Below, piece by piece: positions 15,752 through 55,617 of a DNA stretch of 64,000 bases. The notes beneath the pieces were generated by a model. The model was given only the letters and a program-made list of their open reading frames with translations. It was not told the origin of the DNA and made no database searches. A program made the position numbers and the translations under genes. Position 1 is the stretch's first letter. Each line of letters starts with the position of its first letter. Source of the DNA: Chloroflexota bacterium (GTDB taxonomy: Bacteria; Chloroflexota; Anaerolineae; Anaerolineales; UBA11579); the NCBI GenBank assembly GCA_013112575.1, contig JABFGG010000005.1:62001-126000 (forward strand), written 5' to 3'.

Positions 15752-17182
15752 TCATTTCTTCTTAACAGCCGCATACGCATCCAGCGCCATCTGCCTTGAT
15801 ACTTTCACATCCACAATCGGCCTAGGGTACTCCTTGCCAATCTCACAATTTGCCTCTCGCTGAACCTCCACTGGCATTTCCCAAGGCGTGTGGATGTATT
15901 TATCCCGCACCTGGACCAACTCCGGCACCCACCTACGAATATAAAACCCATCGGGGTCAAACTTTTTACTTTGTAAGATCGGGTTGAACACCCTGAAATA
16001 CGGTGCCGCATCTGTACCAGTACCGGCCGTCCACTGCCAGCCGCCATTGTTGTTAGCCGGGTCGCCGTCCACCAAATGCTGCATGAACCACTCCTCTCCC
16101 CAGCGCCAATCAATCAGCAGGTTCTTTACCAGGAAAGACGCCGCGATCATACGCGCCCGGTTGTGCATCCAGCCCGTGGTCGCTAATTGTCGCATGGCCG
16201 CGTCCACCACCGGATAACCCGTTCTCCCTTTTCGCCAGGCTGCAAAGTCCTCCTCATCATTACGCCAGCGGAGGCTGTCATATTTTTCACGGAAGCTGCC
16301 TTTTAGGACATGCGGGTAATGATAAAGAATCGAGATGTAGAATTCCCGCCAGATCAATTCATTCAGCCAGGTTTCGGCACCTCTACGTGCCTCACCGGAA
16401 TTGCCGGCCTTATCCCGAGCCTTTAAAGCAGCCACTACCGCTTGCCTGGCAGACAACATTCCAAAACGCAGGTATGGCGAAAGTTGGGAAGTGCCATCCA
16501 CGTCCATGCGGTTACGCAGCTCGTCGTACATGTAGATAGAGGCCTCATTACCCTGGATGAATTTCTCAAGACGTCGCTGTGCTTCTTGTTCACTGGGAGG
16601 GAATATTAGGGTTTGCCCTCCCTTGGCCTCTGGCAAAGCTTCACTCTGAATCTCATCCGGCGTATTGATGCGCTCAGGCGCCGGTAGGATTTCACTGGGT
16701 CCCGGCAACGGCAATTCTTTCCATCTTCGCATGAACGGCGTGTACACTATATAAGGCTCACCATCTCCCTTCAACACCTCATCCGGTGAACGCAAACTGG
16801 TGCTTCCTACGAGTTCGAGAGGTAACTGGGACCCTACAGATTCATCACGTCTACGCGCATAAGGGCTGTGATCAGCTTTGGCAAATATAGCCTCTGCCCC
16901 ACTTTCTTCCATCACCTGCTTCAAGACCTCCGCAGGCTTTCCACTTCTAACGATCAAACGACCACCCCTTTGCCGCAGGTCATTGTCCAATGACTCCAGT
17001 CCACCATAATGGAAAGTAGCCCGCTTCTCACTATAGAACCTTGAACGTTCAAAGAACGGGTCGCGAATGAAAAGCGGGATGACCTCCTCTCCTGCATCCA
17101 ATGCCGCCTGCAGCGCGGAGTTATCTACCAAACGCAGGTCGCGACGCAGCCACCAGATTGCACGCCGCACAGTTTTAGTCAT
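15752..17182 (-). CDS. phrB: Deoxyribodipyrimidine photolyase (cryptochrome/photolyase family)
   Basis: IWWLRRDLRLVDNSALQAAL; C-terminal TGYPVVDAAMRQLATTGWMHNRARMIAASFLVKNLLIDWRWGEEWFMQHLVDGDPANNNGGWQWTAGTGTDAAPYFRVFNP. Confidence 0.95.
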   Translation of the reverse strand: MTKTVRRAIWWLRRDLRLVDNSALQAALDAGEEVIPLFIRDPFFERSRFYSEKRATFHYGGLESLDNDLRQRGGRLIVRSGKPAEVLKQVMEESGAEAIFAKADHSPYARRRDESVGSQLPLELVGSTSLRSPDEVLKGDGEPYIVYTPFMRRWKELPLPGPSEILPAPERINTPDEIQSEALPEAKGGQTLIFPPSEQEAQRRLEKFIQGNEASIYMYDELRNRMDVDGTSQLSPYLRFGMLSARQAVVAALKARDKAGNSGEARRGAETWLNELIWREFYISILYHYPHVLKGSFREKYDSLRWRNDEEDFAAWRKGRTGYPVVDAAMRQLATTGWMHNRARMIAASFLVKNLLIDWRWGEEWFMQHLVDGDPANNNGGWQWTAGTGTDAAPYFRVFNPILQSKKFDPDGFYIRRWVPELVQVRDKYIHTPWEMPVEVQREANCEIGKEYPRPIVDVKVSRQMALDAYAAVKKK

Positions 17183-17292
17183 TCGTCTTTATTCTCTTTA
17201 TTACGGTTTTCATAGATCAACAGAAAAGCATATGGTGCCAGACAAACGACCGTTACGATTGTGCCAAAGACAAAAATAAATAGGTCATTCAT
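17179..17292 (-). CDS. 37-aa single-TM small protein overlapping the phrB start
   Basis: MNDLFIFVFGTIVTVVCLAPYAFLLIYENRNKENKDE; stop overlaps phrB start by 4 nt (ATGA-type coupling). Confidence 0.55.
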   Translation of the reverse strand: MNDLFIFVFGTIVTVVCLAPYAFLLIYENRNKENKDE

Positions 17293-17461
17293 TACGGCTC
17301 GGCTCCGCGAACAGATATGCGCCAAAGGCCAGGATGGACGGCACCCATAGCCCAACGAACACACCCTCATCTTTCATCCCAAAGAACCACAGGGACACAG
17401 AAAACAGGAAGGATGCCCCTGCTGCAATATAGATCGGTAACTTTCTGCGATTGATTTTCAC
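17285..17461 (-). CDS. 58-aa two-TM small protein
   Basis: GTG start at 17461 preceded by AAGGAG at 6 nt: MKINRRKLPIYIAAGASFLFSVSLWFFGMKDEGVFVGLWVPSILAFGAYLFAEPSRNE. The tracked ATG at 17488 overlaps the predicted -10. Confidence 0.6.
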   Translation of the reverse strand: MKINRRKLPIYIAAGASFLFSVSLWFFGMKDEGVFVGLWVPSILAFGAYLFAEPSRNE

Positions 17462-17487
17462 AACGAACTCCTTGAACAATTTGTGCA

Positions 17488-17516
17488 AATATACACCATT
17501 GTCAACATTTTGTCAA
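17488..17516 (-). promoter_or_regulatory. Promoter of the phrB operon (minus strand)
   Basis: Minus-strand TTGACA (17516-17511), 17-nt spacer, TATATT (17493-17488). Confidence 0.65.
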
Positions 17517-17531
17517 TATATTATCAATAAA
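17499..17531. promoter_or_regulatory. Putative operator: three 11-bp direct repeats
   Basis: TTGTCAACATT / TTGTCAATATA / TTATCAATAAA, exactly contiguous at 11-bp period, overlapping the minus promoter -35 and directly upstream of the plus promoter -35. Confidence 0.6.
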
Positions 17532-17534
17532 TAC

Positions 17535-17563
17535 TTGACAAAATATGTGCAACCTGTTATATT
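17535..17563 (+). promoter_or_regulatory. Promoter of the 17574-18878 genes (plus strand)
   Basis: TTGACA (17535-17540), 17-nt spacer, TATATT (17558-17563). Confidence 0.65.
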
Positions 17564-17573
17564 CTAACCATCG

Positions 17574-18083
17574 ATGGAATTTGAAGAAGCCATGCACACA
17601 AACACATTTCCCACTGTCAGCGGCAAGAACCTCGACCGTAAAAAGTTAACCTTCCCAAAGGACTTCCCTGCTCCATACAATCTCGCATTGATGGCTTTTT
17701 ATCAGCGTCAGCAACTGGATGTTAATACCTGGCTACCCTTCGCCGATCAACTCGATAGCGAGCATGAAGATTTCACTTACATCGAATTTCCGGTTGTCTA
17801 CAAAATGAATCCCATCCAACAGTTTTTCCTCAATGAAGGCATGCGCGCCGGCATCCCCAATCAAAAGGCGCGTGAAAAAACCATCACGCTTTATCTCGAT
17901 AAAACCCGTTTCCTGGGTCAGTTAGGAATTGACTCGCAGAATGAAATTCAGATACTATTGGTTACACAAGAGGGGCAGGTTATTTGGCGGGAAGCCGGGA
18001 TCTTTACCAGCAAAAAGAAACAAGCGCTCGAAAGCATTTTGCAGCAGGAACGCCAATTGCAAGCGAGCAACGTCGTTAGCTGA
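17574..18083 (+). CDS. Protein of unknown function, possibly thioredoxin-fold (ATP10/SCO-like)
   Basis: 169 aa; KKLTFPKDFPAPYNLALMAFYQRQQLDVNTWLPFADQL...EIQILLVTQEGQVIWREAG. The start may be ATG 17592, because the predicted transcript start is near 17570. Confidence 0.55.
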   Translation: MEFEEAMHTNTFPTVSGKNLDRKKLTFPKDFPAPYNLALMAFYQRQQLDVNTWLPFADQLDSEHEDFTYIEFPVVYKMNPIQQFFLNEGMRAGIPNQKAREKTITLYLDKTRFLGQLGIDSQNEIQILLVTQEGQVIWREAGIFTSKKKQALESILQQERQLQASNVVS

Positions 18084-54500: not shown

Positions 54501-55057
54501 ATGAACTACGCTCCCCTATGGCGACGGCTCGTTGCCTACTTCATTGATGGTTTGATTGCCTTTGGTGTGGTGCTTGTCATCCTGCAAAGCCTGATCTTCC
54601 CCCTGCTTTCCGGCTCCTCGGAGAGTTTTATCTTTCGGGGCCCCGCATTGAAATCTATACCTTATTAACCATCTCCCTACCAGTATGGCTCTATTTTGCC
54701 ATCATGGAAAGCCGCGGCAAGGGCGCCACTGTGGGCAAACGCTTACTAGGCATTCACGTCAAAACAGCAGATGGAGAAGTCTTGACTTTCACCCAGGCTT
54801 TGTCACGCACGATTATCAAATTGCTGCCCTGGGAGATCGCCCATATGGTCATCAACCTGCCGACTAACGCCTGGATCAACCCGGCAACAGGTGTAGTTGA
54901 TCCTGCCAATGCGGTCATGGGGCCATTTCGTAGCGGCATTCTATTGTCAGTTTATTTGTTGGCCTTTGCCTACGTGGTCCTGGCGTGGCGCAGCCCGCAA
55001 AAGCAAAGTCTGCACGACCGCTTTATGGGCACGGTTGTGCTACAAAGTGAGTCTTAG
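54501..55057 (+). pseudogene. RDD-family membrane protein interrupted by a -1 frameshift (true pseudogene, sequencing error, or recoded)
   Basis: Frame 1: MNYAPLWRRLVAYFIDGLIAFGVVLVILQSLIFPLLSGSSESFIFRGP (stop at 54668); -1 frame continues PRIEIYTLLTISLPVWLYFAIMESRGKGATVGKRLLGIHVKTADGE... to 55057. Confidence 0.75.
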
Positions 55058-55617
55058 GCGCGCGAATCCCATAAGGGTTCATCGATGCCCCTCTGTTGAT
55101 TCTCATACCGCCCCATCACAAAAAGCGCATCCGATAAACGGTTGAGGTAGGCCTGGGTCAACTCACCCGGGTCTTCTTCTTGTGCAAGGGTAACTACAGC
55201 GCGTTCGGCCCGGCGGCAGATCGTGCGGGCAACCTGCAAAAAAGCCGCACCCGATGAACCGCCCGGTAGGATGAAATTCTCCAAAGGCCCCACTACTTCA
55301 TTCAATTCATCGATCAACTCTTCCAGGGAATCTACGTGGCGCTGCTCGACGCGCGGCACTTCAAACTCCTTTTTGTCTTCTTCAGGAAAAGCCAGATCTG
55401 ACCCCAAATTGAATAGTTCATTCTGGATATTGGGCAAACTTTGCATAAGCCGATCACTCAAGCCCTGTGCCATGGCCGCACCGATCATTGAATTCAACTC
55501 GTCAACTACGCCATAAGCATCCACCCGCACATGGTTTTTTGGAACACGCTGTCGCGTACCCAGCGAGGTTTCACCCTGGTCGCCTCCACGAGTATAGATC
55601 TTGGTCAAACGGGGCAT
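55054..55617 (-). CDS. Cob(I)alamin adenosyltransferase (PduO type)
   Basis: [90 protein letters not shown]. Confidence 0.94.

Follow-up and report, generated by a model that had tools for sequence, protein, structure and literature searches.

A predicted two-sided CarH-type operator between a photolyase operon and a P2–TspO operon in an Anaerolineales genome

The 64,000-nucleotide stretch of Chloroflexota DNA analysed here (the window) carries two divergent operons, one including a DNA photolyase gene, the other encoding first P2, a member of an unnamed protein family, and then a TspO-like membrane protein. The question raised by this locus is whether the DNA between them is an operator through which light controls both operons, and which regulator would bind it. 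A sequence-only reading had seen there back-to-back promoters over three 11-bp repeats, and had proposed a B12-dependent photoreceptor of the CarH/LitR type, acting in trans. On the minus strand, sORF1, sORF2 and the photolyase gene are joined through overlapping stops and starts (Table 1); a few other genomes also have, in the vicinity of P2, stretches 48–62% identical to sORF1. The TspO-like label given by that reading is fair, since the ortholog of a near relative (L149, 73% identical) just exceeds the cut-off of PF03073 (TspO_MBR), with 24.3 bits against 24. The cobalamin adenosyltransferase gene at 55054–55617 is real (PF01923) and, as already said then, shows no linkage to the locus.

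Table 1. Features of the divergent promoter region and of the genes on either side (positions in the window).
Feature	Position	Strand	Source
DNA photolyase, 476 aa	15752..17182	-	PF00875 + PF03441; NCBIfam photolyase models
sORF2, 37-aa membrane-type protein, overlapping both neighbours	17179..17292	-	ORF reading
sORF1, 58-aa membrane-type protein, GTG start, photolyase operon gene 1	17285..17461	-	ORF reading
-10 box TATATT, photolyase operon promoter	17488..17493	-	promoter scan
Left array full repeat (DR) AATGTTGACAA, within minus promoter spacer	17499..17509	-	sequence; consensus PMC9304148
Left array full repeat (DR) TATATTGACAA, contains minus -35 (17516-17511)	17510..17520	-	sequence; consensus PMC9304148
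Left array degenerate repeat (dr) TTTATTGATAA	17521..17531	-	sequence; consensus PMC9304148
Right array full repeat (DR) ATACTTGACAA, contains plus -35 (17535-17540)	17531..17541	+	sequence; consensus PMC9304148
Right array degenerate repeat (dr) AATATGTGCAA	17542..17552	+	sequence; alignment with crtBI promoter
-10 box TATATT, P2-TspO promoter	17558..17563	+	promoter scan
P2, thioredoxin fold without cysteine (ORF-caller start 17574)	17592..18083	+	ORF, domain searches, predicted structure
TspO-like membrane protein, 256 aa	18108..18878	+	ORF; ortholog L149

Direct reading and a promoter scan confirm the back-to-back arrangement of two consensus promoters, TTGACA-N17-TATATT, over tandem 11-bp repeats. 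Each promoter has 11/12 matches, and the two are the best among eight promoter-like sites in 3 kb (mean of 2.5 in shuffles). The left array reads on the plus strand as three contiguous units, TTGTCAACATT, TTGTCAATATA and TTATCAATAAA, which, turned to the CarH orientation on the minus strand, give one degenerate and two full repeats of the published site consensus, nnnnTnnACAn (PMC9304148). The TTGACAA at 17535–17541, described earlier as an inverted motif at the plus -35, is indeed present, but it is more than an inverted copy, being the core of a separate plus-strand array made of one full and one degenerate repeat, which serves the plus promoter. As the two arrays share base 17531, the operator extends over 17499–17552 and comprises five repeats. 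Both -35 boxes are located within full repeats. With the published consensus alone, pairs of repeats spaced by 11 bp are more frequent in 17461–17580 than in dinucleotide shuffles (p = 0.005). With the weight matrix, the window scores 29.3 bits at period 11, and no other period exceeds 17.1, a comparison which is partly circular, the matrix having been built from sites of the same genome.

This architecture is reminiscent of known CarH operators. In Thermus thermophilus, three tandem 11-bp nnnnTnnACAn repeats are found, with the -35 inside one of them (PMC9304148, PMC11796333), whereas the window has arrays on both strands, for two divergent promoters. The operators of Bacillus megaterium are also tandem 11-bp repeats, may include a pseudo-repeat and overlap the -35 or -10 (PMC9304148), but they consist of four tandem repeats, rather than of two adjoining arrays in opposite orientation, one with three repeats and one with two. 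Full repeats are likewise mixed with degenerate ones in the myxobacterial operators (Sorangiineae, Nannocystineae), which lie between divergent genes, with an expected control of two promoters and two control regions per genome (PMC9304148). Our literature search, which was thin on subscription journals, retrieved no mapped CarH operator in Chloroflexota.

The genome (5.13 Mb in 44 contigs) was scanned by pattern for further copies of the operator. The initial scan led to the carH promoter, the divergent carotenoid cluster and folE, a pterin gene; the repeats are present elsewhere in the genome, and notably at the carH and carotenoid promoters. In the carotenoid cluster, crtBI lies opposite plsY, glycosyltransferase, P450, lycopene cyclase and polyprenyl synthase genes, and the intergenic region has one array per strand, according to the same design as in the window. 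An 18-mer at the degenerate repeat of the right array, TTGACAAAATATGTGCAA, is identical between the window and the crtBI promoter, and TNTTGACAANNNNTNNRCA has exactly two matches in the genome, in the window and at crtBI. Of the nine exact matches of TNNRCANNNTNTTGACA in the 5.13 Mb, four correspond to the window, carH, crt and folE, four fall within coding sequences, and the last is intergenic, without a clear target. A pattern for repeats reaching the -35, with a spacing of 12 bp, provides a spacing control: it gives nine sites in the genome, none of which belongs to the four light loci. Weaker pattern sites on contigs C13, C4 and C8 adjoin non-light genes and were set aside as chance. Three operator-like 11-bp units, with cores TTGGCAA, TTGACAA and TTGACTT, were observed at C11:20701-20732 (L049 7700-7735), in an intergenic region directly past a terminator-like sequence and without any clear light gene downstream.

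Which protein could bind these sites? Ten MerR_1 and four B12-binding_2 matches are found in the genome, and they coincide in a single protein, encoded on another contig, C28 (C28:23822-25153; L006 1465-2796). This 443-aa protein, hereafter C28 CarH, has an N-terminal MerR helix-turn-helix domain followed by B12-binding_2 and B12-binding domains, with PF13411, PF02607 and PF02310 all above cut-off, and it matches T. thermophilus CarH with an E value of 3e-27. A regulator of the proposed kind is thus encoded in the genome and, the same operator preceding carH, the carotenoid cluster and folE, it would act in trans. The residues of T. thermophilus CarH that contact adenosylcobalamin (AdoCbl), W131, E141, H142 and H177, are all kept. 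The SignatureFinder motifs are found as GQLW (GxxW), EH and GADVP (GxxxP); at the GxxH site, QEQH, the His is kept and the Gly lost. The NCBIfam equivalog model for CarH, NF052513, gives 135.5 bits, under its cut-off of 400, but this model is narrow and remains the best match. C28 CarH differs from its T. thermophilus counterpart by about 100 extra C-terminal residues, an extension common to most close relatives, and by a Phe in place of His132, the residue of the bis-His light state, the alignment showing mostly Tyr at this position in the Chloroflexota relatives. Downstream of carH lie genes for a TIGR01777 oxidoreductase and a CrtD-like desaturase. On its other side, an MFS transporter resembling tetracycline efflux pumps (L045 8363-9691) is divergent from carH across the same operator, and might also be under CarH control.

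From these domains, residues and sites, we infer that C28 CarH binds AdoCbl, that it binds the repeats of the window, and that light relieves its repression. The region 17499–17552 would then most probably be a two-sided CarH operator, through which both operons are repressed in the dark by CarH in trans, and derepressed by light. In the dark, AdoCbl-loaded CarH would bind the tandem repeats and cover both -35 boxes as well as part of the left spacer, jointly silencing the sORF1-sORF2-photolyase and P2-TspO operons. In the light, the Co–C bond would be broken and CarH released from the operator; the repair and photoprotection genes would be switched on, and so, at the same time, would the other loci having this operator, namely the carotenoid genes, folE and carH.

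The substitution of His132 makes room for another possibility, namely that CarH does bind the operator, but senses cobalamin supply or redox state instead of light, photolysis being weak or uncoupled. In T. thermophilus, His132 is required for the break-up of the tetramer in the light state (PMC10442372), and the H132A protein is unable to monomerise (PMC10442372; PMC11796333); as residue 132 is Phe and not His, the photochemistry of C28 CarH may indeed differ. In Herpetosiphon, another member of the Chloroflexota, in which CarH adjoins crtB, carotenoid production is constitutive (PMC6210107), and anaerobic Anaerolineaceae such as Flexilinea also have both P2 and carH. Position 132 is however variable among proven AdoCbl photoreceptors, with Arg in CtMerR and Tyr in AbDPcob (PMC11796333), the Trp stacking on the Ado group and the Glu are retained in C28 CarH, and the targets are light genes, photolyase and carotenoid genes. 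We therefore regard sensing of cobalamin or redox state as unlikely.

The repeats could also be bound by another MerR-type regulator, devoid of B12. About eight further MerR_1 proteins are encoded in the genome, and in Myxococcus the operator is shared by CarA, a B12-independent paralogue of CarH (PMC9304148). Nevertheless, none of these other MerR proteins has a CarH-type helix (RAWERRYG..GGHRLYS) or a B12 domain, whereas the gene of the B12 protein is itself preceded by the repeats, which makes this alternative very improbable. These proteins were dismissed as binders, being ordinary MerR, duplicated MerR, excisionase-like or citrate-synthase-fused proteins.

The conservation of the operator was assessed in related genomes with a weight matrix trained solely on sites of the home genome, nine periods being compared. 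Among 22 relatives, the DNA preceding carH scores highest at period 11 in 15 cases (combined p of 1.3e-22, the relatives not being independent samples), against 2/21 for control DNA downstream of carH (p of 0.26). A second set, mostly from P2-bearing genomes and partly overlapping the first one (L252 repeats L093), gives 16 of 23 carH loci. Period 9 is likewise raised in AT-rich promoters. In the 718 kb surrounding the 73 P2 genes, six loci reach at least 22 bits at period 11, and none or one at other periods. The operator is found at P2 or TspO promoters of ten other Chloroflexota loci, with matches of at least 15 bits directly 5' of P2 (L178, L182, L187, L193, L205, L214) or of a TspO-P2 operon (L188, L196, L199, L206), many of which have a -10 at 17 bp. 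The expected recurrence of the repeats in relatives is thus observed, in 11-bp register, before carH, P2 and TspO genes. Directly upstream of photolyase in relatives, no operator was found by the weight matrix, period 11 being the best in 2/13. Neither did the home-genome matrix find one in the Anaerolineaceae loci in which photolyase and P2 are adjacent, and where CarH is short and diverged. Photolyase and CarH are nevertheless associated at the level of gene content: this photolyase is present in 13 of 60 relatives, all 13 of which have CarH, while CarH is present in 24 of the 60 (p of 4.8e-7, with the same reservation that relatives are not independent samples). In addition, three genomes (G031, G033, G056) have photolyase, carH and crtB grouped within a few kb, and the carH promoter of Flexilinea flocculi contains TATATTGACAA-AACATAGACAA. 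In another genome (G007; L090 782-1956), P2 and a different gene, of 117 aa, diverge across CGATTAGACAA-TTAATTGACAA-AAAATTGATTT; the latter gene is possibly another CarH target.

That the region would merely hold a pair of strong promoters overlapping in an AT-rich stretch, with repeats as by-products of the -35 boxes, is barely credible: TTGACA is the core of each full repeat and the spacer is AT-rich, but the full repeat in the minus spacer and the degenerate repeat upstream are not promoter elements, period 11 exceeds the eight other periods in relatives while the downstream controls are blank, and the array is common to four light-gene loci of one genome.

The CarH encoded in the genome and the repeats recurring in 11-bp register in related genomes both support the CarH/LitR-type reading, which the absence of either would have refuted. 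They point to a predicted CarH-type operator for two promoters, as part of a regulon comprising four loci or more. Because CarH is encoded in the genome, and the same sites are found at carH, the carotenoid genes and folE, the operons of the window very probably belong with these loci to a light-controlled gene set of known type. The myxobacterial operators control carotenoid genes and carH, to which the home genome adds photolyase, P2-TspO and folE. A comparable set of targets is found in the class II LitR regulons of Pseudomonas (PplR, PmlR), which include photolyase, FolE and a short-chain dehydrogenase (PMC9758184), although these regulators bind TGTACA-N12-TGTACA and have a LOV protein, and not AdoCbl, as partner.

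The least familiar member of the set is P2, for which no match was found in Pfam, NCBIfam or PDB sequences. Its predicted structure (pLDDT of 92) is a thioredoxin-type fold near ResA, Sco and peroxiredoxins. The copy of the window lacks any cysteine, and a conserved Gln-rich stretch, QxQQ..TW, stands in its place in the family. P2 is found at 73 loci, mostly in Chloroflexota, about 15 of which have TspO or photolyase next to it; a CarH-like protein is encoded in 48 of the 49 P2-bearing genomes examined. Among named genomes, the closest proteins to the window copy (63–65% identical) are those of Anaerolineales metagenome-assembled genomes, which makes this order the most likely one for the home genome. 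One plausible, if still tentative, possibility is that the CarH regulon of Chloroflexota includes P2 as a light-response family, which would contribute to photoprotection next to photolyase or TspO, and that the CarH in control has a light switch independent of His132. While the CarH operator itself is of known type, novelty would lie in the P2 family and in the photochemistry of a CarH that lacks His132.

Finally, the predicted operator and its regulon (photolyase, P2-TspO, carotenoids, folE and carH) would give a concrete basis to B12-based light sensing in Chloroflexota, and would tie an unnamed family, P2, to light. Flexilinea flocculi is a cultured strain suited to testing these proposals, which predict that DNA repair would be induced by light in the largely uncultured Anaerolineae.
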